Origin: Tieghemostelium lacteum
Taxonomy: Eukaryota > Evosea > Eumycetozoa > Dictyosteliales > Raperosteliaceae
Direction: 5' to 3'
Assembly (NCBI GenBank): GCA_001606155.1
Contig: LODT01000028.1
Coordinates: 844,735-908,734, forward strand
Length of the DNA: 64,000 nucleotides
In this document: positions 1-50,258 of the stretch, in pieces
Layout of the letters: the number at the start of each line of letters is the position of its first letter
Position numbering within the stretch: position 1 is the stretch's first letter
Program-made: the position numbers and the translations under genes
Notes under the pieces: model-generated
Database searches by the model: none
Seen by the model: only the letters and a program-made list of their open reading frames with translations
Told to the model about the DNA's origin: nothing

Positions 1-3000
1 AGTTGGTGGAAGTGAACAATTGATGAATTCACCTATTATTTTGTTAGTTGATAATGTATTTGGTGTTACAAAATCTAGAACACCTGTATCTTTTAATATT
101 TTAGATGACAGTTCACTGATGATTATTCTCTGCTCTGGTAAATGAACGGAGAGAATATTGGTAAACCAACCCACTGGCGGTACTTTCATTCCATTTGGAA
201 GTTGATCAACTATTCCACTGCAGAGTTTCAAGAGTTCGTTGAGATTGGATTCAGCCAAAGCCAAGGGTTCAATGATATCCAACATAACATCAAGGCTTAT
301 TGAAAGACCTGGCTTTTCTTTGGAAATACAGTAATCAAGTTGATGTAGTTTACTGAGAAGTTTAATGATACTTTGCTCAGAACGGGTGTCGTGATACCTG
401 ATATATTTGAGTGATTTTATAACTGGAATTAGATTTGATTGTTCATAATTACTGATGATGAAGAGGAAAATGTGGTAGAGTGAGTTGATTCTGATGAGAT
501 CTTTGGTTTGATTACTATCAGAAGTATTCAATAGATTAGAGTCAATAGGAGATATATTGAACAATTCACGAGTTACATTTACCCATTCTACAATATCACC
601 AATGTTAATATTATCAGCATCCATTATTCTATTAATAAATGATCCAAAGGCATTGAATGAATTCATTGTCAACTGATTTTTAAACTTCTTGGAATCTATG
701 TCAGAATTACTGTAAGTGAGAATTAAATTCTCAATATTCTTGATGTATATATTAGAATTCATTTTAAAACGAATGATTGTTCTGATATTGGCTCGAATAA
801 ACAATACTAATGGATTGAAGAAGTTCTTGAAGACAAATAACTGAGAAACAGATAGTGTCTTTGCATTCAATACTTTTACCAAAAGGTTATTGAACATTTC
901 AATAAAATCCTCTTCAATTTTCATAACTCTGGTGAAATAGTCAAATCTGAATTTGAAATTTAGATCTTCGTTTTTAGACAAAAGATCTTGAAGAAGTTTA
1001 ATTGGTAGAGATTGAATATACTCATCAAACTTTACTAATACTTTTGTTACTTCTTGATTGGTATATGAACTGATGAAGGTTTGGAAATAATTGTCAAATA
1101 TCATTGAAATTGATTCAAATAGAGGTAGTTTAGGAGTAATAAGAATAAGTGGGTCAGATAGTGAAATTGGATTATATCTCTGAGAGGTATTCTCTGATAG
1201 AACAGGAAGTTTAATACCTTTAATGAAAAGACTAATTAACTCTTGTTCGAGTGATTGTGGATGAATGGCCTCTAAGACTGAGTAACATCTATTATTGAAC
1301 ATCTTTTGATAGATTTCACTGATTACTGGATAGAAATACGATGTCAATGAGTCAATTATCGAATTAAAGAAAGATCTAACCAAATGACCAGTGTTGATAA
1401 GAGTTGAGATGTTGGTGATAATATGAGTTAAAATATTTTGAGTACTACAATGGTAAATAAATTGGTCAATTATATGAACTAACCAAATTTCATTCTTTTT
1501 AAATATACCTTCAACCAATTCGAATCTCTTTATATTGTCAGCGTAGAAAATTCTTTCATTAGAGCTATTTGGGACAATTCTAGTTGAGATTGTCACTCCT
1601 TCACAAATAGTTCGAAGATGTTGATAAAACATAGGTTGGAAGGATTGATAGAGTGATGGGTCTATTTTAACGGTACTGAATCCATAAGAGTGTGTAATCA
1701 AGGCTCTGATATCGGGGTGAACCAATTCGAGAGATGATGCAGTGATTGGATTATCTCCATTCATGCCAAATGAATCAATGTATAGAAATTCAGTGTTGTT
1801 GAGGAAATTAGATTGGATCTTGGGTTGATTGTGAATGGAGTATTCGGGTGGGAAATGGCAAATAATGATCATTTGTTTGTTGGTGATGTTATCAAATGAT
1901 TCCATGACGCAATTGATTTGGTTCTGATTGGCTAATGTTAAATCTGCAAATACCATCAAAAACGTGTGAGATTTAGAATCGTGGAATGATTTCATTTCAT
2001 CATTACATTTGTTGGTTGAATCAATATTGTGAAGTTGAATGATTTTCAGAGTGTCTTTACTTATTAATGGGCTGATCTTCTTGGAGAGAATCTGATAGAA
2101 TGTATCAATGTAATCATTGTCTTTCAATCTATGGAATATCAATGATGTTCTGGTGTAGAGAACCCATTTGTTGATTTGAAACATTAGTTTACGGCCATTG
2201 TTGTAGAAATGTTCATAGAGATTGTGAAGAAATTTCAAACAATTAAAATGCTCTTGGTTGATGAGATACTCTTTAATGTAAGATTTTGGAAGTGATTTAC
2301 ATTTGAATATAGACTCTGGTCTGGCAATCTGCAACAATTTACAATTCAAGTTACGGAATTGGTTGTCTTTGGATTGATCTTGGTAAACTTCAATTTCATC
2401 ATTGAAATTAAGCTTGTAAAGATTGATTGGATTTTCCAAAGCAATGGATCTCTTGGCAATAGAGTAAACCAATGATGAAATGGTTTCATTCGAGTAACCG
2501 AATAGCAATGAATTGTTGGATATATTGTGATGGAACTCGCCCACAAAATCTTTAGAAGATAATAACAACTCAAAGAAGGATTTCTCTTTGTGCGAAAGGA
2601 TGTGATTGAGAAGTTGATCAATAGTCAGATAGTATTTCTCAAATCTATTCAATAGTGGTAATTGAGCTGTTTTCAATTGTGACTTTGGCATGTGAATAAT
2701 AATCTTAAATTCTGGATGAACTGAGCAAAATATACTATGATTCCCGAAAGATACTTTGGCGAAAAATTTAGAAGTACCATTAATAATATGGAAATATCTA
2801 TTGAAGACACTATATAAACTAGAGTAAATTGGAGTTGTATTTACTAATACAATAGTTCCACCAACTGCCATTTCATTCTTGATTTGATCGACAACTGAAG
2901 CTAACGATTCTAGGGTATGGTCTTTTTCAAAACCACCAATTCTGATGACTTTATGTTTGATTCCAAGTTCTTTGAGAATCATCAATGAGGTTTCATTTTC

Positions 3001-6000
3001 AGATGGATCAATGAGCATCAAGTATCTGAATGCACTGGTATTGGGGTCCTCATAATAGAGTCTTTCTTGAAGTGATTCTTGAATTCTCAGAATGGTATTA
3101 TCATTTTTTGAAAGTTCAGTTAGATTAAGATTTCTAAAGAAGATAGTAACAAGATTTTGGAAATCATTCAAAGGAATACCATTGAAATGTCTTTCTAATG
3201 AATTTAAAAGACCTTCTGATGTGATTGATCCAAATTTCTCATAAGATCTCTGAAGATGTCTGAGGAAGAAAACAAAGTCTCTTTGATGGAAGAGATTTTC
3301 CTTGGTTCCTTTTGAGAATTGATTGACCATTTTATAACTATTAGATAATGCATTACAAATGAAATTTTCATGATTGGATAAATTTTTCCTGTATCCAAAG
3401 AGACAACCCTTAACCAATGCTTTATCATCTTCTTCAGAGATTGTTGGAGGATGTAATAGAATTAACATTCTGTTGGCTTTGGCTGCATCTAACATCTTAT
3501 TGGATAAGATAATGATAGAAATATCTTCATTTGCTTGAGTTTGTTTTGTTTTCTGAGATAGTTTATCAAGATAATCATGCATTACTTTCATTGGTGAAAG
3601 TCTTTCATCAACAAGACCAGCTTCATCGAAATGAATAATACATCTAACACGATTCTCTTTGGCAGCACCAACAAATTTTTGTATTTCAATTGCACGATCA
3701 AGAGTTGATTTGACTTCAACATCAGTTGTGTGTTCAGAACATTGGTATCTGTATGCAACTGCATTTGGGAAGAGTGAGTAGAATGATGATTTATCATCTT
3801 TATGAGTGTTGATATTATCTAAAACAATTGAGAAAGAGAGTGTTTTACTGCAACCAGGAGGTCCAATGATCAACAATGGAATTCTACATCCAATACTGAC
3901 AATGGTAAAGAATATATTCAATTGTAGTGAATCAGTTCTAGCAATACCTACTGGGATGTTAGTTACACCTTTATCACACATTGAAGAGTATATTGATTGG
4001 AATGTTTTCATAGATGACATTCTGTTGGTGAGTTGGTCTACATTGTTACTGAGGATTAATGCTTCAAATTTAGAAATCATATCATCTCTCTTGGTATTTT
4101 GAATACTAGTTCTATAGACGTAGGTCATGTAGAATGAACATATAATAGCCAACCAATGAATAAGATAGCTGTCATTTTCTATATAGATATTAGGGAAGCA
4201 GCATCTCAAGATTAGAATACCAATATCAGTCTTGAAGAATTTGTAGATATCAATCGATCTCATGATATCTCTGATTGAAACATGAGTCTTTGATTGATTG
4301 GCATTTCTGAGAGTTCTTTGACCAATGAGAATACTTTCTCTCAAATGTTTCTTGTAGACTGACAAATCTTCATAACTGATTCTATCTTCAACAATAGGTT
4401 GATAATTAAAGAGAGTGTCAACAAAGTTCTCTTCTTGTTGGACTTGGAAAGTTCCAAAATCAAAAAATAGATTCTTCATTGATGGTGGAATTTCTTGAAC
4501 AAAGAATGCCAAATTATTTTCATTAGACTTACCAGTGTAGTTGATATTATCCATAGATTCTAATAATGGATTCATTGCACCAATCCAGAAGATATTTTCA
4601 GGAAGAGGACCTTCACCATCAAGTGTTCCATCAATGAATATCTCAGAGATCAAAGCAAGAGTATCATCTGGACTTGTATTGAATTCGTCAATGAAAACAA
4701 CAATTTTCAATGATATATCAATCTTGGATAATTCAATTGATTGTCTTACAATATCCAAAACAAAGATTTTGAATTCTTTTGAGCTGAATTTCTTGTGCAT
4801 GATGATACGATGGAATAGATTTTGGAATTTAACTGAACAAATCTCTTTGGTCATCGAAACCAGTTGTTCCAACTTAATGATGATCTTTTGGTCTTCTGCT
4901 GAAGACTTAATCAAATTCAAAGGTGATGTATTTGGTAAGAAAACCAATTGATTCTCCAATAGAATCTTTTTGATTGATTGTTCCATCTTACTGAAGAGAT
5001 TGGCTCTGGCAACTTGAGGATTTGGTGGTGGAACTACAACAGCTAGTTCATTAGGTTTATAATTGTACATTTGTTTTATGGCATCAATAATGTGGTTAAC
5101 GTTACAATTATCAGGGATCTTTCCATAGGTTGTCTCATAATCTATGGTGATTGGTTTCAATTTAAACTCTTTGTAGTATGGTTCTTTCAGAATTTTGTTG
5201 ACAGTTTCTTTAATATCAAAGATGATATCTGGAATGGCATTGTTGGAGGCATTGATTAACAATGAATAGAAAATCAGAATAAAAGTCTTACCAACACCAG
5301 TATCACCAGTAAGAATCAAAGATCTTTGTGTTTTGATCTTGTTGTTCAAGATTACCAATCTATGAGCCAACTCATTTGTCAGAACAAACCCATATTGATT
5401 TGACAAATCATTAATGATATAGGTTCTGGTTGTGATATTGAATGAATTGAAAATTGCAGTTTTGAATTCCTTTGGTTTTTCTTTGGCTCTTTGAAGAGAG
5501 AATAATGAATGTTGTTTATTAATGGGAAGAACATTACCCTTTCCACTAAAATCGAAAAAGTCAACAATGGGTTTAATATCTACTTCATCATCAATCATAG
5601 AGTACAAGATGGATCTTGAAGTAACCAATGGTGGATTCTTCCAGATTTCATCAACAGATGAGTAGTGTGGATCAGATAACTGAATGGATTCCAATAAGAA
5701 TAAGTTATAAAGTTCCTCACATGTAAGGAAAGTTTTCATAGTATCACTGATATACTTTCTTTGTTCTTCATCACATGTTTGATTCTCACTGATGTATTTA
5801 TACTTTTTCAAATTTTGGTAATAAACATCTAAAAATTGTAATCTTTCATGCATAAGGCTGAGGAAATTCTTTCTTGGAATACAGAAACCAGCCTCCTTAA
5901 GGAAATTAACAGATTGTTTGATTTTCAATTTGTTATCAATAATGTTTCTGATGTGTGCTAGATAATCATCAAATGAAACTCCATCTCCTGCTTTAATATC

Positions 6001-8893
6001 AGGATATTCAATCATGTTGGATTTGGTGAATGAGAAGCATGTTCGTTCAATATCAGTGATATCCCATTGCATATTGTGATTTTCATGGTTTGCCAAATTG
6101 AAAACAATTGGAATTGATTGTTGTACATAATCATTGTAGTTTTGGAAGTTTCCAGTAATACTGTCCAATGGTGACCCAATTTCAATGAATATACTTGATA
6201 GACTTTCATCAATATTGATAAAATGTCCCTTACTGCCAAAAATGAATCCAAATCCAATCAGTGGGTATAAACATTGATTGAGAACATCAAATGAACACAA
6301 TGGTGAAATGATGAAATGAATGAATACTTCTTTGTTGTCTTTGAGTAAACTGATCTTTTCGACAAGAGAATTCAGATCAAATTCATGACGAACTAGAACT
6401 GTAATGGTTTGTTTACCTTTACATTTTGATCTGATATAATGAGATTTACCACTTCCAGAAACACCTTTAACCAAGTTCAATGAAACTGATTGTGAATTCT
6501 TTACATGTCTCAAATGAGAGTTCTTGTAACAATTATTCTTCCATTGTTCTTTGAAATTTGACCAATCTTCATTGAATGGAGTTTGGTGTTGAGAGAGGAA
6601 TGAGAATATCTCACTGTTAGCAGCAGATTCTTCAGTTGAGACAAAATAGACTTTTGCCAAGTCCATTATGGTATTTTCAGCGAAATGTTTAGAAATCCAA
6701 TTGAGAAGTTTCTCTTTCTCTTGAGGAATTCCAATGACAAAGAATGTTTCATCTGGGAATCTTGCAACTATTTTAAAGAAGAAATCAATATCTTGTTTGA
6801 ATGAATGAGCATAGAAGAGTTGTCTTGGATGTGGCAATGACTGATTCAATTGCATGAGAGCATTCAAAAGATTACTCTTTTTCTCCAGAGGTACAAAAGT
6901 GAATATTGTCTCATTATGATTTCTTCTTGGTGGACTATCATCATCAATTCCCAATGATTCTAAATATTTTGGAATAAATAGATTTAGGAAATTAGTTGGT
7001 TCCTTTGATGCAAATAGAGCATCACCAAGACCAATGATGGTGTTCTTTATCACTTGGATATTGATTACTTCAGCAGTTATACAATATTTCATGAATCTAA
7101 GTAAAGTAGTTGCAAACTTGTCAACATTACCTTTGGGGTTGTTTTCATTCAGTAATCCTCTGAGGAGACTGATAAGACTTGAAATACCAGGTGCACGTAA
7201 CAATAGAAGTTGTCTTGGAAGACTTTGGATAATTGTTTTCCAATTGGTAATCATTAAATCATATTTCTTTTCCAAAGCAAAAAGTGAGTCAATTGATTTT
7301 CCAGAAACATCAAAAGTAATGGTTCCATCAATAAATTCTGGATGATAGAACCTATCAAGTTCAATGTGGAGTGAATGAATACTTTGTAAGATGATAAAGA
7401 GGTCTTTGAATGTTTCAATGTGTTTCTTGTTTTCTTGATTATCTTGTGTGGAGAAGATGGTTAGAACCTGTACACAATCTTCAACTTTGTCGTGAGTCAA
7501 GATATGTGAAGATTTCTTGATTGTGAGAGACCATCCAACAGATCCAGATGCTGATTTACTTGCATCACTTCTGAAATGTGAACTTTCAAGAATTGCAATG
7601 GCAGTTTTTAATGAACTCTGGGATGATGGTTCAACTAGAGAGAAATGAAACATATCAAGTCTCAGATTCTTGAAATAGTCACCTATAGACCCACTAGCTG
7701 TAGCGCTATCTAGAAATGCAAGTTGAAGTTTCTTTAGATGTTCATGTTGAGAATTGAATACCTCCATCAGACACTTCATATTGTTCTTTGGATTGTCATC
7801 CTTCTTCTTTAATAGATTTTGAAGAACTGGTGAGAAATAGTCATAGTATTCCTCTGATTTACATATTGCTGAGAAGAGATTAAGAGCTTTATCACCTGTG
7901 AATTGTAATTCAAAATGCTGAAGAATCTCATCGACATACTGTCTATTGTCAAAGTGCAATGGAATTACATGTCTCAGGAATGAGTCAGGGTCATAGATAA
8001 ACAATCTATACAATATATTAGCACACATTTTTCTCTCTTCAATATTCAGTTTCTTTAAAAATCTACAAGCAATCTTGACACGAATAATGAGAATTTGCAG
8101 ATCTGCAACTTTATCAATATCTCCATAGACATCATAAATGAACTCATTGGCTATAGTGAGTTCACATTCAATCTCATTAATCAAGAATAACAGTAAATAT
8201 TGACCTTTGATTCTGATGGCGTAGGCACTCTGTGACTCTGCATATATACTTGATAAAGACAGATTATAACGTTGCCTCAGAATATTAAAAACATTCTTTC
8301 TAGCTGGTGTCTTTAACTTTGCCATTACATTCTTGATTGACAAATTCAACTGTTCATTTAGTACTGATTTATCAAATTCATCAAAAACTGAATTCAACAT
8401 TGGGAATTTAGTCTGACTAGGTGGAACATATTCAGCAAAGTTTACAACAATCTGAATCTTCAATTCCAAACTCATATGACCTATATTCTTTTCAATAAAC
8501 TTTTCAACATGTCCTTTCATTCTTGGATCTATGACTTTGAAAAGGTTATTCAAAACTAATGATTTTGAATTTAAATGTATTAATACACTAGAATCACTAG
8601 ATAGTAATTAAATTAATAGTTAGTGTATCCTATCTATATTACCATAAAGGAGGTTAATATCTACTTACTTATCAAATCTTACAGCCATTAATACCATTGG
8701 TACTACAAGGTTATGAAAGGTGGAATAGTTAAACATTGTTATGAGTTTCTTTCTCTCTGAGTCATGTGATGCTTTATCAATGTTTTTTAGTACAGCTTCT
8801 ATAGCTGAACTTTCTGAGATGGTATTGGCTTCAATTTTCAATAAGGTATCAGCATAGAAGTAACTTGATGTCTTTTTTTTCAGCTTGTGCCAT
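1..8893 (-). CDS. RNF213/mysterin-like giant AAA+ protein, copy A (3' part outside window)
   Basis: One frame stays open on the minus strand from 8596 to the window edge. A 72-bp GT-AG intron (8597-8668) separates it from exon 1 (8669 up to about 8893). The protein shows P-loops GVSGSGKS (near 6450), GDTGVGKT (near 5305) and GPPGCSKT (near 3855). Walker-B-type motifs VVFIDEFNTSPDD and IIHFDEAGLVDE follow the last two. The second and third P-loops match the two active AAA modules of RNF213, a giant dynein-like AAA+ E3 ligase of lipid droplets and antimicrobial defence. Copy A lines up with copy B over its whole length, but its N-terminal 1,000 residues differ: one segment near 8200-8560 is absent from copy B, and a larger copy B segment is missing here. 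The likely start, ATG at 8893, is one base out of frame with the rest at a run of eight A. The family call is firm; the start is not. Confidence 0.85.
8597..8668 (-). other. Intron 1 of RNF213-like copy A
   Basis: The donor GTAAGTAG follows the codons for AVRFD. The acceptor TAG precedes TGATTCTAG. The position and phase match the 60-bp intron of copy B (24683-24742) and the copy preserved in the collapsed third gene near 9680-9730. This supports common descent of all three. Confidence 0.8.
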
Positions 8894-9380
8894 TTTTGGT
8901 ACTAGTTCCTATAGTTGCTTTAGTGGTTTTTCAAAAAAAAATTTTGTGATAAATTAGATTTATCTTAAAAATTTAAGTTGAATAAATGACAATAATAAAA
9001 TAAGATGTAAATATATATTATGTTAAATAAAAAGCTAAAATTTATATTTTGATAAATTTAATGGTATGAAATGATTTATTAAATTAGATTTAAGATTAAA
9101 CTGAAAAAATTTTTTTATATACCCAAGAGGATAGACTTACATTGGCATTTTCCTATCACACATTGATTTGATTTCAGTTTGTCAGAATGGGTTAGGAGTT
9201 GACAGATATCTATTAAAATATCATAAAAAGGTCCATTGGGGTTGGCTCTGATGGATTGAATTGATTCTTTGGATGTGAAATTGGTAAGAATCTTCGTGAG
9301 GAATTCAATATAGGTATTTAACTTTAAAGTGGAGTCCACTTTGAAAAACCAACTATCGATGATATTCTTCATTATTTTGG

Positions 9381-9511
9381 GTCCCAACTCCTCCTTGATG
9401 ACAATGTTTACATGCTAATCACATCCATCACCATGTCAAAAGAATACTATTCCTTTTTTTTTCCAATTCTTAAAGAAATGCCGAAGATATGCTGAAGAAT
9501 AATATGAAATG
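9381..9511 (+). repeat. Inverted fragment of the RNF213-like gene
   Basis: The plus strand here reads as the coding strand of copy B around 24255-24395 (segment around the residues SITMSKEYYFFFFPILEE), while every neighbouring fragment lies on the minus strand. The junction at about 9381 joins it directly to a 3'-end fragment. This shows the middle copy was rearranged as well as deleted. Confidence 0.75.
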
Positions 9512-9950
9512 ACACAGACTATTTAGTAGATAGCAATCTGAATTTTTTTTGACAAAGTCATATTTCCAATATGTTTACAATTCTCTACAAATTCTTTCAT
9601 TCTATTGTCTATTACTATGAATAGGTGATCCCAAATCAAAGATGGTAGGTGTTGAAATACGCTGGCATCACTGTGAGAATTATATTAATACAAAATGAAA
9701 GAAAGATAATATAACTACTGATCTACATACCATTCAAATCTCACTGCCATTTTTACCATTGGTGCCTAAAGGTTATTAAAAGAGTTGTGAGCAAACATTC
9801 ATCAGATTCATGTGATGGTTTAATAATAGTTTTTAAAACATCTTCTATAGCTTTTTTTTCATCGATAGTATTTGATTCTATTTTTAATAATGTATCTTTA
9901 TAAAATATTTTGGTATCAAAATATTGTGATACTTTTTGGTCTCTAATTGT

Positions 9951-10175
9951 TGTTACTATGATAAGTTATAATACATATAACATCATAGTATGAAGTATAA
10001 AACCCGGTTAAATATAACAACGAATTTGTAGAACAAACATTATTACAAATTCGTTGGCAACACACAACAAACAAATATATAAAAACATATATTAAATTAA
10101 ATAAACATCATTCTTAATATATATAATTCTATATATATATTAATTATCTCTAGACTATTAGTTACAATAGTTACA
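9951..10175. mobile_element. 225-bp insertion with 6-bp target-site duplication (solo LTR or MITE)
   Basis: Comparison with exon 1 of copy B shows an uninterrupted site (ctctaattgtgttgtt) there. Here the 6-mer aattgt occurs at both 9945-9950 and 10176-10181 with 225 bp between. The insert begins TGTTAC and ends GTTACA. Its outer 15 bases form an imperfect inverted repeat (11 of 15 by eye), and it contains a perfect 13-bp hairpin. TG...CA ends with a 5-6 bp duplication suit a solo LTR; the terminal inverted repeat and small size also allow a MITE. There is no coding capacity. It is younger than the duplication that produced this gene fragment. The family was not identified. Confidence 0.75.
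10018..10056. repeat. Perfect 13-bp hairpin inside the insertion
   Basis: caacgaatttgta (10018-10030) is followed after 13 bases by its exact reverse complement (10044-10056). It lies near the middle of the 225-bp insertion and may be a regulatory or termination structure of that element. Confidence 0.75.
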
Positions 10176-10231
10176 AATTGTGTTGTTATTATTATTATTA
10201 TTTTGGTCATAAGCCATATCCTCATCAAGAG

Positions 10232-10531
10232 AAACACTACAGTATTTTTTTTGATTGTTTAAATTAAACAATCAAACAAAAAAAAGAAAGTTAACTTAAA
10301 GTTTGAAAAAAATGCTAAATCATTGATTGTAATACCTTACCTTTCATGAGATATGATTTGGAATCTTAAGTCATATTGAATATGCTAGAATTACATATTT
10401 TTTATCTGAAGGATATTCGATGGACCCATCCAATTCTAAAAAAGGTTTGTATTAATTTAAGTATAGATAATTTAAAATGACTACTAAAATATTTAATTGT
10501 TTGAATGGAGTTCTAATTTTATTTTTTAAAT
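10232..10531. other. Intergenic, no gene seen
   Basis: This is AT-rich spacer between the collapsed copy and the SAM-like reading frame. It has a short palindrome (gattgtttaaattaaacaatc, about 10252-10272) and no supported ORF. Confidence 0.5.
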
Positions 10532-11613
10532 TTAAAATACTACATCATCTGGGTCAATGATATCATGAGAGATGAATGCTGATTTCAATTTTTCAAGATG
10601 TTGTAAAATGATAGATCTAATATTTACAGATGGGATGATATCCCAATCAGTATTGTTCAATATAAAGAGAAAATCATCAAAGCCTTCTGAATATATTATG
10701 TTGTTGAGATCAAGTTTAGATCTTTCGGTCATGTGGAATAAATTGATCCATGCAATTGTACCATTTTCATAGATTTTTACTAATTCTTCTTTGGATTTGG
10801 TAATTGGACTTGAAATTAAATCATCAATTGTAAAGACAGAGGCTTGGATGAATTGTTGTTTGAGTTTTTCTACGAATCCAGTAAGAATATTTCTCTTGCT
10901 CTCAATTGGGAATAAAACATTCCATTGTGTGAAATTGAAGAGGAAGAAGAAATCTGTGAGTTTTGATGACTCTAATCCTCTGATATATTCATTTTTAGAT
11001 TCATCACTTAATTTCAGAGTTTTTATCCATTGAATGACACCTCCATTGAATATCTCTTGAAGCTCTACCCTTGTTTTGGAGGTACTAGTTACTCTATCAC
11101 TAAGAACCTTTTCGCTGACTATTCCATTATCTAGTAATGATTTCTTCATAAATTCATAACTTTTAATGAGTATACCTCTGAACATTGGATCTGGTACCAA
11201 CCGTTCCCAATCTCTTGTTGACATGGTAAAAATGGAAATGTAATCATTTACTAGTTTTGAACCCAAAAATTCTATTAATTCACTTGGACCTTTGTCATAG
11301 AGTATTTGCAGCTCATCTTTCGTTAGATTATTGTAGTTGTTTGTAGGTTTAGTATCACTAACATTTTCAGTTTGTTGAAATAAATTTTCTCTTGCATTAT
11401 CATCTACTGATAAATCTAGAGATTCATTGGATAATGAAAGTTCAACTGAGCCATCTAGAGTGGATTCTTCAGTATCATAATCTTGGTAATCATCAAAGAT
11501 TGGATCTATAAGACCATTATCATCAACTGTATTTAAATGATATATCCCATCAATAGTGTCTTGGTCAACATTTAAATCATCATTTTCATATCTATAAATT
11601 GAATCTACAAGAA
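10532..11613 (-). CDS. Acidic linker plus three SAM-like repeats; probable C-terminal extension of copy B
   Basis: A frame open from just after the copy B stop down to 10532 codes for about 355 residues. The first third is acidic and Ser/Thr-rich. The rest holds three repeats of about 90 residues. Each begins (D/E)EL or VEL, then an aromatic-glycine segment, then W or F-containing helices, and ends R..IL....EKLK. The order of hydrophobic positions (IQWIKTLKL, then a W/L-rich centre, then KRNILTGFVEKLK) resembles SAM domains; this is inference from pattern only. There is no convincing ATG at its 5' end; the first internal ATG (MSTRDW) is at about 11225. Adding one base in the GGTTTC stretch near 11613 would make it continuous with copy B (reading DIGFLVDSIYR). 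It may instead be a separate gene with an unseen 5' exon. Confidence 0.6.
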
Positions 11614-14600
11614 ACCGATGTCATCACTAAAAATAAATTCTTCTACTTCTTCTTTTTCGTCAAGTTGATAGGGTTCAAGGAAGTCAATGATAAATGGCTC
11701 TTTGTAAGGTTTGGAAGACTCAATCTCTTCAATTTTAGATAGTGCTACAGAGAGTGTATCATGAATGGATCTCATAAAGAGAGGATAGACTGACATTGGC
11801 ATTTTCCTATCACACATTGATTTGATTTCAGTTTGTAGGAATGGGTTAGGAGTTGATTGGCAGATATCTATTACTTTATCATAAAATGTTCCATTGGGGT
11901 TGGCTCTGATGGATTGAATTGATTCATTGGATGTGAATTTGGTTAGAATCTTCTTGAGGAATTCAATATAGGTATTTAACTTTAAATTGGAGTTACAAAT
12001 TTCTGAGACTAGTTTGGTTTTCAAATCAATGAAAAAAGCATTGAATTGTTGCTTTGGTGGGTGAATAGTGAATTCTGGTATTAAATTACTGTATAGATAT
12101 CCACAGGAGAGGTACTCATTAATGACTAGGTCACATACTTTCAAGAGTGATTTCAATGGAATGTTGTTGAGAGCGTTCAATATTTCAGTTGATATAGCAG
12201 AATCTCCACCAGTGTATTCAGCGATGCTTATATCAGAGTTTGGGTTTTCCTTTTCATTGTTTATCTTGCAGCATGTATTTCCAAGATAACGAGCAACATC
12301 ATCAAGAAGGTCATGACCTTTACACAATGATGTTAGATCGATCATTAGTTGTTCATCACAGTCTTTTTTGAATTCTAACGAATTTACCTGTTCTGTAACT
12401 GATTGAAGATCTTTAATGGATTGTGGGACTTTAGAAGGGGTTATAGATTCAATATCCAATTCTTTTAGATTAAATCTTTCTGGTTCATTGAATGGGAATT
12501 TAGATTTTAAGGATTTTAATAGGCTATAACATTTGACAATTGTAGTAATACAAGATATATTCATTTGAGATTGAATAGTAGTGAGATTTGGTGTTAATTT
12601 ATCTCTTTCAAAACTTTGGAAATGTGAGATCTTATTGAGTAGATAGGACTGGAAAGTCTCTGGTGTGAAGTTTGAACCAATCAGCAAGAAGTTGTCACCA
12701 GTTTCAATGTCACCTATATAAATTTTAGATTTTAAATATTTTTCAAAATATTCTTCAATTTTATCAATCCAAGAGTTGGTGGTAGGTATTAAAATATCAC
12801 CTTCATTGAATGGTAACAATGCTGAGATTGGAGTGTCATCGTTAATTTCCGGAATAGAGGTTTCACTTAAAATTTGAATTTCTGTTTTTATCTCTTTCCA
12901 TGTAGTTTTCAATTCATCCCATGACTGTTTCAATGCTAGTAGTGATTTAGTTTCTTTGTTTAACTCAACTATTGAGTTATAAACTTGATGGAAATTCGAA
13001 TTCAAATGTTCTACACTGAGACATCCTTGAAAATGTTTATAACATAGCGATAAGAAATGAATGAGTTTAGGGATTTTATCTAATATAGAATAGATATCAA
13101 GTTGATTTGTGATGAAATTGATATCTGGTAATTTCATTGATGAAATGAAATCTTTGATAAACTTGGGTGAATAGATTGGTGAACTGTGAATTTTGGCCAT
13201 CTCTTGCCTTAACTTGAGAATGTTGGCGTGACCTACTGATTGTTTTTCCAACATTTTGATTTGAGTTGATTTCTTGGATGGGTACTCTAGATAGAGATCA
13301 TTGATTATTGGAATCAATACCTTTTCTTCATATTCTAATGCATCAAAATCAGAACTAAATATTGATTTCATTGATGCATTGCTGAATTCATAAGAGTGTT
13401 TCCACAATTCATAGATGTATTCTGAAATGAATTGGCATGGTTCTAAATGGAGATTGAGGTTTTCTTGATTGTTCTTGAACTTTTTGATTGATGATAATCC
13501 AATTTCAAATACATAAGAGATTAAAGCATTGATAGATGTCTTATCCTTTAGTTTACATGAGAACTGAGTGACAACATCATTTAATATTTTCAAATGTTTA
13601 GGATATACACTGATGGTGTAAGCAAATATTAACCAACTTGTTGATGATACAATATATTTCTTTTGAATGTTACCTCCCATTGTTAATGTAAAATCATTGT
13701 CATTGTGTATCATACCATAGTCTCTGAACATGTGTCCAACATCACAAGCTGGGAAGTATGCACCTGCAACTTTCAATGGATCTGTGAATTCGACTGCTTG
13801 TCTTGTGAGATTGAAGAGATAAGATTTATCATTGGAACCAAGTGACATCGCAACAAAATTAATAACCATGTGTGATATTGATGTTTCAAATTCACTTTTG
13901 TTGGCACCATTTTTGAGAATATTATCAAGTAAATTGTCTCCAAATGAATTATTGATGATCTTTTCATAGATTCCCAATACTGGCGCAAGTTCGAAATGTG
14001 TTTTTAAACTTTGGTCATCAAGAATTTTTTGGTATTTAGTTAGTTGTGTACCAGCAATGTAATCTTGGTAGAGCAAGATGAACAATGATGATCTAAAGAG
14101 TCCTTTGAGAATTGGAGTTGTTGATTCATTTACCAATTCATTCATACATTGAGGTATTGTTGAAATTGTTGTTTTAACTTTCATAAAGTAGGATAAATGA
14201 TCATTTCCTTCAAGATATACAAATGGAAGATTGTAATAGTACATGGGATCTATAGATTTACCTAAATATAAGTTATTTAGGGAGAATGAATGTAAGAAAA
14301 CTTTATCTTGTAGGAACTGGAAGAGAGTCTGTTGACTATCAATCTTATTGATAAAGAGCATTTGGTTAATTCTATTTTGATATTCCATTGTTGGTGTATG
14401 GTTTATTCCAACTTTAAAGAGTGATTTCAAAAGTGTTGTGAAATCTGTGTCTTTTAGAATCACATCGTATTTTCTTTCTCTTGATAAAATATCACAGAAG
14501 GTTTCAATTAACCGTGTCTCTAGAGCAACTGCACGAATTTTCATTGGTAGATTTTTATGTTCATCATAGGCTGAAAGTTGTTTTTTTCTTTCTTCAATAA

Positions 14601-17600
14601 TTGTTAAACTCTTCTTGGGATCTTGGTATTCAGCAAGATAGAGGTAATAGAGACAATCAGCAAGTTTAGATGATTTATGAGTTGGAAATGAACAATTGAT
14701 GAATTCACCTATTATTTTGTTGGTTGATAATGTATTTGGTGTTACAAAATCTTGTACACCTGTCTCGTATAATATTTTAGATGACAGTACACTGATTATC
14801 TTACTCTGCTTTGGTAAATGAATGGAGAGAATATTGGTAAACCAACCCATTGGTGGTACTTTCATTCCATATGGTAGTTGATCAACTATTCCACTGCAGA
14901 GTTGCAAGAGTTCATTGAGATTATATTCAGTACCCGTCAACGCCAATGGTTCAATGATATCCAACATTACATCAAGGCTGATTGAAAGACCTGGCTTTTC
15001 TTGGGACATACGGTGGTCAAGTTGATGTAGATTACTGAGAAGATTAATGATACTCTGTTCATTAAGGATGACGTGATACTTGATATATTTGAGTGATTTT
15101 ACAACTGGATATAGATAAATACTCAAATCTAATTCCAGTTTATAACTATTGATGATGAAGAGGAAAATGTGGTAGAGTGAGTTGATTCTGATGAGATCTT
15201 TGGTTTGTTTACTATCAGATGTATTCAACAGATTAGAGTCGATAGGAGATATATTGAGTAATTCCCTAGTTACATTTACCCATTCTACAATATCACCAAT
15301 GATAATATTATCATCATCCATTTTACCATTAATAAATGATCCAAGGGCATTGAATGAATTCATTGTCAACTGATTTTTAAACTTCTTGGAATCTATGTCA
15401 GAATTACAGTACGTGAGAATTAAATTTTCAATATTCTTGATGTGTATATTAGAATTCATTTTAATACGAATGATTGTTCGGATATTGGCTCGAATAAACA
15501 ATACTAGTGGATTGAAGAAGTTCTTGAATATAAATAACTGTGAAACAGATTGTGTCTTTGCATTCAATACTTTTACCAAAAGGTTATTGAACATTTCAAT
15601 AAAATCCTCTTCAATTTTCATAATTCTGGTGAAATAGTCAAATCTGAATTTGGAATATAGATCTTCGTTTTTAGACAAAAGATCTTGAAGAAGTTTAATT
15701 GGTAGTGATTGAATATACTCATCAAACTGTACTAATACTTTTGTTACTTCTTGATTGGTATGTGAACCGATGAAGATTTGGAAATAGTTGTCAAATATCA
15801 TTGAAATTGATTCAAATAGAGGTAGTTTAGGTGTATTAAGAATTGGTAGGACAGAAAGTGAAATTGGGTTATATCTCTGAGAGGTATTCTCTGATAGAAC
15901 AGGAAGTTGAATACCCTTAATGAAAAGACAAATCAACTCTTGTTCGAGTGATTGTGGATGAATGGCCTCTAAGACCGAATAACATCTATAATTGAACATC
16001 ATTTGATAGATTTCACTGATAACTGGATAGAAATACGATGTCAATGAGTCAATTATCGAATTAAAGAAAGATCTAACCAAATGACCAGTATTGATAAGAG
16101 TTGAGATGTTGGTGATAATATCAGTTAAAATATTCTGAGTACTACAATGGTTAATAAATTGGTCAATTATATGATCTACCCAAACTTCATTCTTTTTAAA
16201 TATACCTTCAACCAATTCGAATCTCTTTATATTGTCAGTGTAGAAAATACTTTCATTAGAGCTTCTAGTTGAGATTGTCACTCCTTCACAAATAGTTCGA
16301 AGGTGTTGATAAAACATAGGTTGGAAGGATTGATAGAGTGATGGATCTATTTTAACGGTACTGAATCCATAAGAGTGTGCAATCAAGGCTCTAATATCGG
16401 GGTGAACCAACTTGGGAGATGATGCAGTGATTGGATTATCTCCATTCATGCCAAATGAATCAATGTATAGAAATTCAGTGTTGTTGAGGAAATTAGATTG
16501 GATCTTGGGTTGATTGTGAATGGAGTATTCGGGTGGAAAATGGCAAATAATGATCATTTGTTTGTTGGTGATGTTATCAAATGATTCCATGACGCAATTG
16601 ATTTGGTTCTGATTGGCTAATGTTAAATCTGCAAATACCATCAAAAACTCGTGAGATAAAGAATCGTGGAATGATTTCATTTCATCATTACATTTGTTGG
16701 TTGAATCAATAGTGTGAAGTTGAATGATTTTCAGAGTGTCTTTACTTATTAATGGACTGATCTTCTTGGAGATAATCTGATAGAATGCATCAATGTACTC
16801 ATTATCTTTCAATCTATGGAATATCATGGAAGTTCTGGTGTAAATAACCCATTTGTTGATTTGAAACATTAGTTTACGGCCATTGTTGTAGAAATGTTCA
16901 TAGAGATTGTGAAGGAATCTCAAACAATTAAAATGCTCTTGATTGATGAGATACTCTTGAATGTAAGACTTTGGAAGTGATTTACATTTGAATATAGACT
17001 CTGGTCTGGCAATCTGCAACAATTTCCAAATAAAGTGATGGGATTGGTTGTCTTTGGATTGATCTTGATCACCCTCAATTTCATTATTGAAATTAAGCCT
17101 GTAAAGATTGATTGGATTTTCTAAAGCGATGGATCTCTTGGCAATAGAGTAAATCAATGACGAAATGGTTTCACTCGAGTACCCAAATAGCAAAGAATTG
17201 TTGGTTATCTTGTGATGGAACTCGCTCACAAAATTTTTTGAAGATGATAACAACTCAAAGAAGGATTTCTCTTTGATTTTGTGCGAAAGGAAGTGATTGA
17301 GAAGTTGATCAATAGTCAGATAGTATTTCTCAAATCTATTCAATAGTGGTAATTGAGCTGTTTTCAATTGTGACTTTGGCATGTGAATAATAATCTTAAA
17401 ATCTGGATGAACTGAGCAAAGTATACTATGATTCCCGAAAGATACATTGGCTTCATATTGTAAAGTACCATAAGTATCCTTAATGATATGGAAATATCTA
17501 TTGAAGACACTATATAAACTAGAGTAAATTGGAGTTGTATTTACTAATACAATAGTTCCACCAACTACCATATCATTCTTGATTTGACTGACAACTGAAG

Positions 17601-20600
17601 CTAACGATTCAAGTGTGTGGTCTTTTTCAAAATCACCAATTCTAATGACTTTATGTTTGATTCCAAGTTCTTTGAGAATCATCAATGAAGTTTCGTTTTC
17701 TGATGGATCAATGAGCATCATGTATCTGAATGCACTGGTATTGGGGTTTTGTCCATCAGAGAGTCTTTCTTGAAGTGATTCTTGAATTCTCAGAATGGTG
17801 TTATCTTTCTTTAGAGGAGCTGTATAATTGAACTTTCGAAAGAATATCGAGGAAATCTCATGGAAATCATTATATGGAATACCATTGAAATTTCTTTCTA
17901 ATGAATTTAAAAGACCTTCTGATGTGATTGATCCAAAATTCTGATAAGATCTCTGAAGATGTCTGAGGAAGAAAACAAAGTCTCTTTGATGGAAGAGATT
18001 CTCCTTGGTTCCTTTTGAGAATTGATTGACCATTTTATAACTATTAGATAATGCGTTACAAATGAAATCTTCACTCTTGGATAATTTTCTCTTATTTCCA
18101 AAGAGACAACCCATAACCAATGCTTTCTCATCTTCATTAGATATTGTTGGAGGATGTAATAAAATTAACATTCTATTGGCTTTGGCTGCATCTAACATCT
18201 TGTTGGATAAGATAATGATTACAACCTCTTCATTAGATCGTGTTTGTTTTGTTTTATGAGAGAGTTTATCAAGATAATCATGCATTACTTTCATTGGTGA
18301 AAGTCTTTCATCAACAAGACCAGCTTCATCGAAATGGATGATACATCTACCACGATTCACTTTTAAATCACCAACAAGCTTTTGTCTTTCAATTGCACGA
18401 TCAAGAGTTGATTTGACTTCAACATCAGTTGTGTGTTCAGAACATTGGTATCTGTATGTAACTGCATTTGGGAAGAGTGAGTAGAATGATGATTTATCAT
18501 CTTTATGGGTGTTGATATTATCTAAAACAATTGAGAAAGAGAGTGTTTTACTGCAACCAGGAGGTCCAATGATTAATAATGGAATTCCACATCCAATACT
18601 GACAATGGTAAAGAATATATTCAATTGTAGTGAATCAGTTCTGGCAATACCTTCTGGGAGTTTAGTTACACCTTCATCACACATTGAAGAGTATATAGAT
18701 TGGAATGTTTTCATAGATGACATGTTGGTGAGTTGGTCTACATTGTTCCTGAGGATTAATGCTTCAAATTCAGAAATCATAACATCTCTCTTGGTGTTTT
18801 GAATACTAGTTCTATAGACGTAAGCCATGTAGAATGAACATATAATAGCCAACCAATGTATGAGATAGCTGTCGTTTTCTTTATCGATATTAGGGAAGTA
18901 GCATTTCAAGATTAGAATTCCAATATCAGTCTTGAAGAATTTATAGATATCAATCGATCTCATGATATCTCTGATTGAAACATGGGTGTTTGATTGATTT
19001 GCATTTCTTAGAGTTCTTTGACCAATGAAAATACTGTCTCTCAAATGTGTATTGAAAAGATCAGATTTAACTGAATTTGTCTTTTCAATACTGTTGATTT
19101 CAAATAGAGAGTCAACAAAGTTCTTTTCTTGGTGGACTTGTAATGTTCCATAATCAAAAATATATTTCTTCATTGATGGTGGAATTTCTTGAACATTGAA
19201 TACCAAATTATTTTCATTTGTTTTACCAGTATAGTTGATTTTATCCTTGGATTTAATTAATGGATTCATTGCACCAATCCAGAAGATATTATCAGGAAGA
19301 GGACCTTCACCATCGAGTGTTCCATCAGTGAATACTTCAGTGATCAATGCAAGAGTATCATCAGGACTTGTATTGAATTCATCAATGAAAACAACCATTT
19401 TCAATGTTTTATCAAACTTGGATAATTCAATTGATTGTCTGATAATATCATTAACAAAAACCTTGAATTCTTTTGAACCGAATGTCTTATGCACAATGAT
19501 ACGATGGAATAGATTTTTGAATTTAATTGAACATATTTCTTTGGTCATTGAAATCAAATCTTGCAATTTGATTGACTGTTTATCAAGGGTAGAACTGTTA
19601 TCATCTACATTGAACAATGAAGAGGTTTCCATATTAAGGGTCTTTTGATATTTTTTTAATTCCTGTTTAAGTAACTCAGTTAGAGTATCCTTCTCAGTTG
19701 CATTTGTATTGTTATTGTTACTGTTACTATTTACATTATTGTTATTATTAACCTGTGCAAATATATTATTCTTTAGAAATTCACTCAAATTCAATTCTTT
19801 CAAATTCAAGAGAGATGAATTTGGCAATAAAATCAATTGATTTTCCAAGAGAATCTTTTGAATTGTTTTTTCAACCTCATTGATGAGGTTGGCTCTGGCA
19901 ACCTGAGAATTTGGTAGTGGAGCAGATATCATGTCTGTTTTCATCTCTGGTTCATAGTTGTACATTTGTTCTATGGCATCAATGATGTGATTGAGATTGC
20001 AATTACCAGGAATCTTTCCATAGGTGTTATCTCCATTTATAATGATTGGTTTCAAACTAAACTCTTTATAGTATGGTTCTTTGAGAACTTTGTTGACAGT
20101 TTCCTTGATTTCGAAGATAATGTCTAGAGTTTTATCAATGGATGCGTTAATCAACAATGAAAACATTTTGAGAAAAAATGTCTTTCCAACACCAGTATCA
20201 CCAGTTAGGATCATTGGTCTCTTATTCTTCATTTTGTTGTTCAAAATGATTAACTGAAGAACCAATTCATTGGTGAGAACAAAACCATGTTGATTCACTA
20301 AATTACTTATAATCTCTGTTCTGGAGGTTATGTTGAATGAATTACAAATGACATGTTTGAATATAGTTGGGTAATTTATAGCTCTGCTATGAGAAAACAT
20401 TGTTTCTTGCTTGGAAGAAAGCACATTAACTTTTCCACTGTAATCAATAATATCAACAATGGGTTTAATATCCATTTCGCCATCAACTATGGAGAAACAT
20501 GTAGATCTTGAAGTAGTTAATAGATTCTTCCAAATTACATCAGTTGAATAGTTATCTGGATCAGATAGTTGAATAGACTCCAGTAAGAATATATTGTAAA

Positions 20601-23600
20601 GCTCCTCACAAGTGTAGAATTTTTGAATGATTTCATCTAATAAATACCTTTTTTCGATATTTAAGTTTTCTGGAACTCTCCCACAACCCTCAATATAATT
20701 ATGTGTGCTATTATAATATTGGAGATAACCTTTTAAAAACATCAGTCTTTCATACATTAAATTGAAGAAATTCTTTCGGTGGGTAAAAAAGACATCTTCA
20801 TATAGGAAATTTACAGATTGTTTGATTTTTAATTTGTTATCGAGAATGTTTCTTATATGAGCAAGATATTGGTCAAAAGAAACACCATCACCTTTTGTGA
20901 TGTCAGGATATTCAGTCATGTCGGAATTGGTGAATGAAAAACATGTTCTTTCAATATCAGTGATATCCCAATCCAATTCATAATTTTCATGTATTGCCAG
21001 ATTGTAAACCATTGGAATTGAATTTTGAACATATTCTTCATAGTTCTGAAATTGTTTGGAAACACTGTCCAATGGAGTTCCAATTTCAATGAAAATTGTT
21101 GATAAACTTTCATCTATGTTAACCATTTTTCCATTACTGTCCAAAATGAAACCAAATGTAATGAGTGGATAGAGATATTGATTGAGAAGATCAAATGAAC
21201 ACAATGGTGAAATGATGAAATGAATGAATACTTCTTTGTTGTTTTTCTCGAGTGAACTGATCTTTTCAACAAGAGTATTCAGATCAAATTCATGACGAAC
21301 CAGTACTGTAATGGTTTGTTTACCTTTACATTTTGATTTGATATAATGAGTTTTACCACTTCCAGAAACACCTTTAACCAAGTACAATGAAACTGATTGC
21401 GAAACCTTTTGATGTCTCAAATGAGAAATCTTGTAACATGTATTCTTCCATTGCTCTCTAAAACTAGACCAGTTGTTGTTTAAAGGAGTATGCAAATTCG
21501 GGAGTGAGAATATTTCACTGTTGGTTGTAAAGTCTACAGTGGAGATAAAGTAAACTTTTGCCAATTTCAAAATGGTTTTTTCAGCAAAATGCTTAGATAT
21601 CCAATTGAGAAGCTTATCTTTATCTTGAGGAATTCCAATGAAAAAGAATGTTTCTTTGGGGAATCTCTCAACAATAGTAAAGAAGATTTCCATGTCTTGT
21701 AATGAATTAGCATAAAAAAGTTGTCTTGGGTGTGGCGGTGATTGATTCAATTGCATCAGTGTATTGTGGAGATTACACTTTTTCTTTAGAGGTACAAATA
21801 TGAAAACTGACTCATTCTGATTTCTCTTTGGTGGACTTTCATCATCCTCAATATCTATTAACTCTATTATTTTTGGAATGAAATGTTTAAGGAATTGAGT
21901 TGGTTCCTTTGTTGTGAATATTGTATCACAAAATTTGGTTAGAGTGTCTTTAATCACATTAATGTTGATGTCATCAGCATTTATACAAAATTTCATATAT
22001 GGAAGTAATGTAGATGCCAACTTGTCGATGTTATATCCATTTTTTTCATTCAAATGTGTTCTAAGGAGACTGGTTAGGCTTGAAATACCATATCCACGAA
22101 GCAATAGAAGTTGTCTTGGGAAACTTTGAATGGTAGATAACCAATCATGAAGCAATTCAATATACATATTTTTTAATGCAGATATAGTGTCCATAGTTTG
22201 TCCAGAAACATCAAAGGTAATAGTTCTACCAATGAAATCTGGATGATAGAGTCTCACCAATTCCAAGCGAAGTGAATGAATATATTGTAATTTTTCAATG
22301 AGCTCCTTTAATGTAATAGCTAGTTCGTTGTCTTGATTAGATAGACTTAAGATGGTTAAATCTTGTAAATATTCTTTTATTCTATCAAAAGACATTGTGA
22401 AATTACTTCCCTTGATTGTGAGTGTCCATCCTTTATTTCTAGAGATTGATTTACTTGTATCACTTTGGAATACTGAACCTTCAAGAAGTGAGTAGGCAAC
22501 CTGTAGTGATCTCGATGTTTGTAATCCAGTTTTCAACAGATTCTTAATAGCTGGGAGATTATCATTTACTAGCTTCAAAGAGTTTTGAATGATGGTGGTT
22601 TTGTTTTGAAATAATTTGGAAATCATTTCACAGAAGTCTTTAAAATCGTATTCAAAAATCCTTTTTTGTATTTCATAGTCTATTCTGTGCTGAATAATTG
22701 TAGAGAGTGAGTTCTTGATATAAACTGAATTATCCAAAAGATTTGAGTTCTTTCTATCAATCATATGAGATGATGCGAGTTGAATGTTATTATCAAATGA
22801 TTGTAATGAGAAGAATGATAAATAGAAATCTATCAGATCGGTTGATATATATTTAAAGATAGATAGATGGTGGTGGTTTAGTGAACCAATGTAGTTGCTG
22901 ATATTGTTGATTGCATAATTTGCCTCATTGATTGTCTGATTATTACTGATTGAGAATTCAACTATTTCTAGTATTTGTTGAATAGTACTATCAAGACCTT
23001 TGATAGATAAATATTTACAATTTTCAACAAATGACTTGAGATGTCCAATATTATCTCTGATACCAAAAAGAAGAGTAGCATGGTCAATGAATAACTTTTG
23101 ATTTAGAGTGTCACCATCATAGTGTTTTGTAGGGTAGAAATATTTTGTGATAATTCTCAACTCTTTTGGGTAATTTTCTTCTGTGATTAATGAAATTTTG
23201 CCAAGGATATCATTTAAAGTGATTGATAGATCGTTATCAACTAACTTTTTAATATACAATGTAGTAAATTCCATTACTTTGTCCAATTCTTTTACTTTCT
23301 CAAAATAGAATTGAAAAACTACTTTGAAGAACTCTGATGGTTCAACCAGTGTGAAATGAATCATTCTATCCAAAAGAACTTTGTCTATGAAACCATTTCC
23401 ATTTATACCATTAGCAGAACAAATACACTGTTCTTGAATATCTATTCTATCTTTGATAAGATAATTAGACAGATCACCAGAATCTATCACAAATCCATAA
23501 TATTCGTTGAGGATGTTTGTGATTTTAATGAGGTTCGCTAGACGACTTAATAAAGTGTTGTGGTACACTTCTACTGATTCAATGGATACCAAATTAATCT

Positions 23601-25001
23601 GACCATAAGACGAAAGAATTTTAGAGTGATTAATGTACACTTCCTTTTTGGATGATTCGAAACAATTTCCAATGCTTTTAAGCCTATTGTTTAGAGTATT
23701 GATGAAGTCTTCCAGTACTTTAATGTATTCATTGTATTGGCTTTTCCAATGTACTCCATTATAGTTTTTCATCAAGCCAAATCTACAAACAACATTATGA
23801 TAGATGTTATTTTCGTCAGTAAATACATGTACATTACGAATGAGTTCCGTGAGTAGGACTAAATAAGGCAAGGTATTTGGAAGGGAATTGTATTCCAAGA
23901 GTGTTTGTATTTTATCCATTGTAATCTGATTATCATTAGTCGGACTTTTGTAGGTAAGATCTTTAATTACACTACCAACAATATCTTGGCAATATTGGAA
24001 ATATCTCCTTCTGTTATTGATATCTAAAATCATAATCTTGTCTACTAAATAGTAACTTTCAGTGTCAGATATTTTTCTAAAAAATCTTAAAATGGGTTTC
24101 ATATTCACTGTTGTGATTTCAACTGTTGTGGTGGGACAGTGAAGAAAAATTAGACTGGTAAACTGAGGAGAGGAGCTTTTTAAAATATAATCTTGGGGTT
24201 CTTTTAGATATTCATGTGGTGATTTGAATAGTTCAATCATGCATTTCATGTTATTCTTCAGCTTATCTCCCATTTTCAGCATTTCTTCAAGAATTGGAAA
24301 AAAAAAGAAATAGTATTCTTTTGACATGGTGATGGATGTGATTAGCATGTAAATATTGTCTTCAAGGAGGAATTGGAACCGAAAATAATGAAGAATCTCA
24401 TCGATAATTGGTTTGTCAAAGTGGACTGGGACTACATGATGAAGAAATGATGTGGGGTCACAGATGAACAACCTGTATAGGATAACAGCACAGTAGCCTC
24501 TCTCTAATTGTCGATTGAGTCTCTTTAGGAGTATACATGCAACGTTACAACGAAATTTGAGTATCTCCAGATTGGAAACCTTATTGATGTCTTTATACAT
24601 ATCATAAATGAATTCATTGAGAATAGAGAGTTCCCGGTGATCCCAAATCAAAGATGGTAGGTGTTGAAATACACTGGCATCACTGTGAGAATTATATTAA
24701 TATAAGATGAAAGAAAGATAATATAACCACTGATCTACATACCATTCAAATCTCACTGCCATCAATACCATTGGTGCCCAAAGGTTATTAAAAGAGTTGT
24801 GAGCAAACATATCAATAAGCTTCTTTCTCTCTGATTCATTTGATGGTTTAATAATGGTTTTTAAAACATCTTCTATAGCTTTGTTTTCATCGATAGTATT
24901 TGATTCTATTTTTAATAATGTATCTTTATAGTATTGTGTTTCTAATGTTGGTTTATAATAGTTATACAATATTTTGGATCCTATTTGGTCTCTAATTGTG
25001 T

Positions 25002-25034
<33 letters not shown>

Positions 25035-25083
25035 TATTATTATTATTTTGGTGTGCCATATCCTTATCAAGAGGATCTCCCAT
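11605..25083 (-). CDS. RNF213/mysterin-like giant AAA+ protein, copy B
   Basis: Exon 1 is 24743-25083 (ATG at 25083), the intron is 24683-24742 (donor GTATGTAG, acceptor TCACAG) and exon 2 is 11605-24682, giving about 4,472 residues. P-loops lie at about residues 1217 (GVSGSGKT), 1606 (GDTGVGKT) and 2151 (GPPGCSKT). Walker-B-type acidic motifs (FIDEFNTSPDD near 1875, HFDEAGLVDE near 2230) follow the last two, the pattern of the active AAA3/AAA4 pair of RNF213. The segment FNAFFIDL near residue 4270 resembles the stretch just after the RING in animal RNF213, but no C-x2-C/H pattern of a RING precedes it and no RZ finger is seen. Ubiquitin transfer by a known zinc finger is therefore not supported. 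Exon 1 starts with an Asn run. A second Asn/Ser insert sits inside the second AAA module and is absent from copy A. It is probably a cytosolic hexamer-like mechanoenzyme. Confidence 0.85.
24683..24742 (-). other. Intron 1 of RNF213-like copy B
   Basis: A 60-bp intron joins VRFE through a split codon to CDASVFQHLPSLIWDHRE. Without it exon 1 would stop after WYVDQWLYYLSFILY. The same intron is recognisable in both relatives in this window. Confidence 0.85.
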
Positions 25084-49782: not shown

Positions 49783-50258
49783 TAGTTGGTAGTAATATAT
49801 ACATATGTTTTAAATAATAAAATAGAGGTTACATGATGGAATAATGATAACATCAAAAAAATACTATTTACTTTTTAAATATTGTATTGAAATTTATTCT
49901 GTTAAAAAAAATTTTCAATTAAATATTGTGTAACACTTTGAATTAACACAATTGTTTGTTTTAAAGTAAATTTATATGGTGTGAAATATTAAATTTTACA
50001 ATTTTTTATTTGTCACATTAAAATCAAAGAATTTATACATTTTAGTGTTTTGATTAATTATATTAAACCCCCCTACTTGTTAAATATTTTTTTACACCCC
50101 CCTTCTACACTTTTAAAACAATGTTTTTTACTCTAAATCAAGTCATTGTATTAAATTGTTAAAAAAACACATTTTTACCACTTTAGTGAATAGTAATATT
50201 TTTTAATATAAATATTTTAAAAATTTTACATCATTAATAAATATATATATTTAATTTA
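49783..50258. other. Intergenic, no gene seen
   Basis: AT-rich with two C runs (accccccctac near 50065 and acaccccccttc near 50093) that stand out in such AT-rich DNA. They form a short direct repeat of unknown meaning. Confidence 0.5.

Follow-up and report, generated by a model that had tools for sequence, protein, structure and literature searches.

A cluster of giant genes with an RNF213-like ATPase core in Tieghemostelium lacteum, probably diversified by exchange among copies

What kind of protein is encoded by the giant open reading frames at the start of this Tieghemostelium lacteum stretch, and how did several of them come to lie side by side? The window analyzed here is the whole stretch of 64,000 nucleotides (C23:844735-908734), taken from a 23.3 Mb genome of 43 contigs with a G+C content of ~30% and short, AT-rich introns. 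Window positions 1-25,083 carry, on the minus strand, a long gene (G1), a remnant (R) and, over its first 8.6 kb, a second long gene (G2). The original prediction described them as RNF213-like; RNF213 is a broad antimicrobial factor and a Moyamoya disease factor. The reading that we narrowly favor is that the giants form an ATPase family with an RNF213 core, probably reading ubiquitin rather than writing it, and diversified by exchange among copies.

The giant genes extend well beyond the window. Their cluster occupies C23:799-870 kb (~70 kb) and contains four long copies (G1, G2, G3, and G4) and two remnants (R and R2), with G4 oriented opposite to the rest and other open frames between. Two additional long copies lie outside the cluster, G5 (C23:1728-1744 kb) and G6 (C42:808-824 kb), giving a genome total of at least six long copies and two remnants. 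These were sought at the protein level, with pieces from the core, the post-AAA region and the N terminus as queries against the genome, and the counts are lower bounds; the same searches gave no convincing relative beyond the six copies and the remnants. An 85-residue match on C29 falls in an asparagine-rich part of the query. As predicted, giant frames and a remnant lie head to tail on one strand, G1, R, and G2 sharing the place of the first intron, a position also common to G3 and G4 and, by eye, to G5 and G6. The proposed three-member array holds for G1, R, and G2, but the array itself continues through G3, R2, and the inverted G4 to C23:799 kb. The features of G1, which runs on the minus strand from 25083 to ~10535, are as follows.

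24743..25083, minus strand: G1 exon 1, with its ATG at 25083; aligns with exon 1 of G3, R, G2, and G4
24683..24742, minus strand: G1 first intron, GT...AG, 60 nucleotides, splice sites by eye
11605..24682, minus strand: G1 exon 2, with the N-arm, the AAA core with three P-loops and a post-AAA helical module
17107..20259, minus strand: G1 core stretch compared with RNF213, with P-loops at exon-2-frame residues 1499 and 2044
10535..11620, minus strand: G1 tail frame of 362 codons, shifted by -1 from the exon 2 frame

The match to RNF213 is real and is statistically confined to the AAA core. A phmmer search of G1 against the PDB returned RNF213 in nine of ten rows (E 2e-38 to 3e-36), the tenth being unrelated (E=0.52), and a profile of five core sequences returned RNF213 in 9/9 rows (best E=6e-49, all E<=1e-42). 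The original prediction depended on an RNF213 match in this core, and both searches provide it. G1, G2, G4, G5, and G6 each have three P-loops and the Walker B motifs of AAA3 and AAA4, and in all five, the copies that have a core, Walker A and Walker B of these two modules are intact; G3, with 2407 codons, has no core. The corresponding Walker residues of human RNF213 are given as K2426/E2488 in AAA3 and K2775/E2845 in AAA4 (PMC11549300), and these two modules are described as the competent sites, with AAA2 binding ATP without hydrolysis (PMC7311170; PMC12075652).

Like RNF213/mysterin of human and mouse (PDB 8s24, 6tax), the giants are single chains of ~5,000 residues that match in the sequence of the AAA core, with a P-loop before AAA3 (AAA2 by order) and both Walker motifs in AAA3 and AAA4. 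A further likeness is that the N-terminal part evolves fastest. Between G4 and G5, the nonsynonymous divergence (dN) is 0.54-0.93 in the first four 200-column windows and 0.11-0.22 in columns 2000-3000, and the primate RNF213 N-terminus is described as being under positive selection (PMC11549300). For the CBM20 of the RNF213 N-terminal part, Pfam gave no match in the N-arm stretch of G1, the one N-arm scanned, nor did it list any other domain there. RNF213 is called conserved in vertebrates (PMC7311170; PMC3963067), other papers mention it in connection with invertebrates, one of them being on a cnidarian, and no dictyostelid RNF213 study is named among the literature matches listed. NCBIfam gave no matches for the three stretches scanned. 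Pattern scans for prokaryotic and viral relatives matched 51 and 600 times, respectively, and tblastn confirmed not one of these; the test was limited, with two short peptide patterns per scan.

Outside the core, homology to RNF213 is not significant. The RZ finger of RNF213 is built on C4505, H4509, C4525, and C4528, with C4516 as nucleophile and H4537 as base. With E up to 1 allowed, Pfam listed neither a RING nor an RZ in the G1 frames; in the C-terminal stretches of G2, G4, G5, and G6 it listed neither at E up to 5, and RZ was found in none of five segments. CxxC pairs number zero in G1 exon 2 and one each in G2-G6, there inside another domain, which is USP-like. No more than four Cys occur per 70 residues in the 14 parts counted (the G5 and G6 ends and one G3 tail piece being left out). 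Of the two ligase features of RNF213 looked for in the giants, RING and RZ, neither was recognized. The label RNF213-like is accurate for the AAA core (phmmer E=2e-38, profile 6e-49) without making the giants RNF213, since no RING was seen, no RZ was recognizable and most copies have a USP-like end. The giants differ from RNF213 in these respects as well as in their C-terminal repeats and their multi-copy cluster.

RZ fingers occur in this genome at C11 and C26 only. At C11:363500-367500, a gene that we name ZNFX1-like combines AAA_12 with an intact RZ finger (E=2.7e-22) and lies beside a ComC-domain frame; on C26, positions 1390-1638 hold a second RZ-type finger in a short frame of 82 codons. 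ZNFX1-type RZ helicases are RZ relatives of RNF213, but they belong to another ATPase family and have an intact RZ; neither AAA_12 nor RZ was listed for the stretches of the giants scanned.

In place of a recognizable ligase, five copies (G2-G6) end in a degenerate USP-like domain followed by repeats. Both G4 and G6 show a match to the Pfam UCH family (PF00443), with E=5.7e-4 and E=4.3e-4, respectively. A structural model of 388 G6 residues, predicted from five sequences, had 420 Foldseek matches at E<=10; the 50 listed all carry titles of USPs, PAN2, or coronavirus papain-like proteases, with a best E of 1.4e-6 and E<=0.001 in 29 of the 50. In an alignment of five rows, with the tails left out, the CxxC and CxH finger ligands are kept in every row. 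By our reading of the catalytic register, no row (0/5) has a catalytic Cys at the Cys-box place, and among the three rows reaching the His box, G6 alone keeps the His, G4 and G5 having F in its place. The domain resembles USPs and pseudo-USPs (PAN2/USP52, USP39) in its sub-threshold Pfam match, its Foldseek likeness, and its retained finger ligands, and differs in that no catalytic Cys was found and that a giant AAA+ core is attached. It is a quite improbable alternative that the domain is an active deubiquitinase whose catalytic residues have shifted. The domain is USP-like by both methods, and activity has been reported for USP39 and USP52/PAN2 although the usual triad is lacking in them (PMC10919355), but the missing Cys, by our reading, and the F at the His box of G4 and G5 argue against it.

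The tail repeats are ~87 residues long and have seven genome matches, all at the six giant genes. Helices are predicted for one of them, and a SAM-like reading was dropped, as Pfam gave no match. The G1 tail carries the same repeats as the tails of G2, G3, and G4. Its exon 2, within a stop-to-stop frame at 11605-24696 (4363 codons), ends before the USP-like stretch, and G4 813630-816008 has no blastn counterpart in G1; the USP-like domain has been lost in G1. A programmed frameshift into the G1 tail was considered and rejected, no canonical slippery site being visible by eye at 11605-11620. An insertion or deletion, or an assembly error, is likelier behind the change of frame.

Several results weigh against a pseudo-USP built onto an RNF213 core in a living gene family. 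The UCH scores of 20.4 and 20.0 bits lie below the Pfam cut-off of 23.9; in G5, UCH reaches only E=4.3 and is outranked by an unrelated Cas6 row (0.062), and none was returned for the G2 stretch (G2, G4, G5, and G6 being scanned). A phmmer search of the G5 stretch against the PDB returned no USP. The model is weak, with a mean predicted local distance difference test score (pLDDT) of 52, reaching 60-87 in residues 91-180, and a predicted template-modeling score (pTM) of 0.50, and the Foldseek TM-scores by query length are low (0.17-0.42). The USP fold is predicted, on a weak model with low TM-scores and a Pfam match below cut-off. On the RNF213 side, the stretch of the C-terminal domain (CTD) is collinear in the full-profile alignment yet non-significant (-0.6 bits). 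A CTD-only profile found no RNF213, and Foldseek of a post-AAA model of 1,197 residues listed none among 50 of 512 matches. Finally, part of the cluster may be dying, given the damaged first exons of G2 and G3.

The collinear CTD alignment also bears on another explanation, namely, that the giants are true but very diverged RNF213 orthologs whose E3 shell, RZ, and CTD have become unrecognizable, with RZ zinc ligands partly lost and some ligase activity perhaps remaining. In G4, a string resembling RZ, C..GH....DCG........MG, can be discerned by eye with its residues ordered as expected, and RNF213 is described as ligating through an essential RZ finger, with a RING that is dispensable for bacteria (PMC11549300; for RING also PMC7311170). 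Against this, hhalign with two RZ fingers of this genome gave 0.5% probability and aligned other residues, Pfam found no RZ, and the second zinc half has no CxxC pair in 7/7 aligned units, G4 having one Cys there; the CTD-only profile is negative as well. A degenerate RZ finger was therefore discarded as a claim, though it stays a lead. An RNF213 E3 shell and CTD in the giants gained no significant support from the full profile, the CTD-only profile, or the 1,197-residue model. We consider diverged orthology unlikely and retain the family with an RNF213 core and a USP-like end as the preferred reading.

The second question, how the copies arose, is best addressed in G2, whose parts are listed here together with those of G4.

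8669..8920, minus strand: G2 exon 1, 5'-truncated and, by eye, one base out of register with G4
8597-8668, minus strand: G2 first intron, at the same place as the G1 intron
1..8596, minus strand: window part of G2 exon 2, which continues to C23:837898; frame of 5148 codons
C23:800156-814627, plus strand: G4, 4824 codons, plus a 632-codon tail frame

Judged from the aligned copies, G2 is a recombination mosaic of its neighbors. Its donor order is G4-like, G1-like, G4-like, then G3-like, with sharp switches. From codon ~150 to window ~2930, G2 is 88-100% identical to G4 at the nucleotide level in 60-column windows; from ~2930 to ~-1530, the same windows give 83-98% to G1 and 57-88% to G4; past ~-1530, identity to G4 is 96-99% over 143 codons. 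The first switch from G4-like to G1-like falls between 2933 and 2919. The last 1,625 codons share 94% protein identity with G3, at a synonymous divergence (dS) of 0.05. A G4-G1-G4 model with two breakpoints fits 2000 of 2188 informative G2 sites, the best of 200 shuffles fitting 1278. In segment trees built with FastTree (support 0.994-1.000 overall), the partner of G2 is G4 in the first parts (0.999, 1.000) and becomes G1 past the core (1.000); G3 falls with G1 at the N terminus (1.000) and with the end of G2 at the C terminus (1.000). The mosaic order therefore leaves G2 with two consecutive post-AAA modules. Between G1 and G4, residue identity reaches 95% in one 200-column core window against 43-78% in the 11 windows before it, which suggests gene conversion in that core stretch too. 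G1 and G2 also share direct repeat pairs spaced 14.7-14.9 kb apart at 72-97% identity (among 20 of 25 repeat families listed), which puts their likeness beyond chance. Copy-number change at the locus, as originally proposed, is strongly supported, and the mosaic and tree evidence extends it to copy content.

The remnants add collapsed products to this picture.

9126..10231 (about), minus strand: remnant R, in which exon 1, the intron and the beginning of exon 2 are followed by an inverted piece and a 3' piece
9960..10170, no strand assigned: repeat element in R exon 1, an insertion of ~0.2 kb
C23:836192-836690: remnant R2, ~70% identity, from the post-AAA region around a CDVGH string, just 3' of G2

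R begins with an exon 1 of G1/G3 type, interrupted by the repeat element, and continues with an intron at 9671-9730 and ~139 bases of exon 2. Its positions 9532-9955 match G3 at 86% over 456 columns, and 9624-9972 match G1 at 83% over 388 columns. The inverted piece at 9333-9511 corresponds to G1 24242-24427 at 89%, and the 3' piece at 9126-9335 (210 bases) to G1 11780-11993 at 92%. R lacks more than 12 kb of interior, because G1 covers ~13.3 kb between the same matched end points. The original prediction of a remnant with both ends and over 10 kb of interior gone was thus right about the loss; the true 3' end is not kept, R having no tail, and the inverted piece had gone unnoticed. R is more than a simple deletion. 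The repeat element has 27 genome matches including itself, two 99% copies lying upstream of G5 at distances of ~0.9 and 3.2 kb (C23:1744735 and C23:1747040), and its insertion in R is probably recent, because four other full-length copies are 99% identical to it.

Such long and similar copies, known from the assembly alone, invite the explanation that mosaic and collapse alike are artifacts of assembly. The donor-like stretches of G2, however, differ from their donors by ~3% (190/5703 and 135/4875) or 7% (322/4401) of bases, a difference that wrongly joined reads from the known copies would not produce. The inverted piece and private insertion of R, and the placement of G4 on the other strand beyond other open frames, point the same way, and we regard an artifact as highly improbable.

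Whether the copies are functional is a separate matter. The ratio of nonsynonymous to synonymous divergence (dN/dS), computed by the Nei-Gojobori method over all aligned codons with our own script, is 0.39 for G1-G2, 0.31 for G2-G4, 0.30 for G1-G4, 0.46 for G1-G3, 0.49 for the G2 end with G3, 0.24 for G4-G5, and 0.25 for G4-G6 (overall 0.24-0.49), which shows coding constraint. When half of the observed differences were loaded at random on G2, the frame stayed stop-free in 1/500 runs for the G4-like part, 0/500 for the G1-like part, and 3/500 for the G3-like part; it is therefore probable that translation of G2 went on through most of its history. A rather unlikely alternative is that the cluster is mostly a graveyard, in which G4, G5, and G6 work and G1, G2, G3, R, and R2 are recent pseudogenes from unequal exchange. 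The truncated and shifted exon 1 of G2, the shifted exon 1 of G3 (by eye), the loss of the USP-like stretch and the displaced tail frame of G1, and the fragmentary state of R and R2 fit it. The open frames of 15.4 kb in G2 and 13 kb in G1, the scarcity of stop-free runs and the dN/dS of G2 against G4 and G1 speak against it, though a death too recent for stops would still fit these.

Neighboring genes encode, among others, ComC-type, 7tm_3, and TAF4 proteins, which together with the G+C content and the introns accord with a dictyostelid. Upstream of G1, a GDSL lipase frame (PF00657, E=1e-15) lies at window positions 26396-27490. Adjoining frames at 50241-51506 and 53656-54996 each have a weak EGF_laminin match and perhaps form a small tandem family. 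A ComC-type frame of 1251 codons with DUF7034, DUF7743, DUF7035, and DUF7949 spans 58297-62049.

Under the preferred reading of an RNF213-core family with a USP-like end, a giant AAA+ family would have gained copies within a single 70-kb cluster and recombined there time and again. Its products would act as ATP-driven, RNF213-like machines whose pseudo-USP ends bind ubiquitinated targets, perhaps microbes or damaged vacuoles. Exchange among copies would swap modules of three kinds (N-arm, core, and C-terminal), and R, R2, and G3 may be examples of the collapsed products of unequal exchange. The further path from the core to a coat, and on to defense, is one that we infer. A bolder proposal, which we hold only tentatively and consider doubtful, is that the RNF213 ATPase core is older than the ligase or separable from it and is coupled here to a pseudo-deubiquitinase as an ATP-powered ubiquitin reader, in a module-swapping array like some immune receptor clusters. 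An intact ATPase core without a recognizable ligase and with a USP-like end would allow the core's own action to be studied, and the organism can probably be cultured with ease. The cluster itself looks like a gene family evolving by module exchange.

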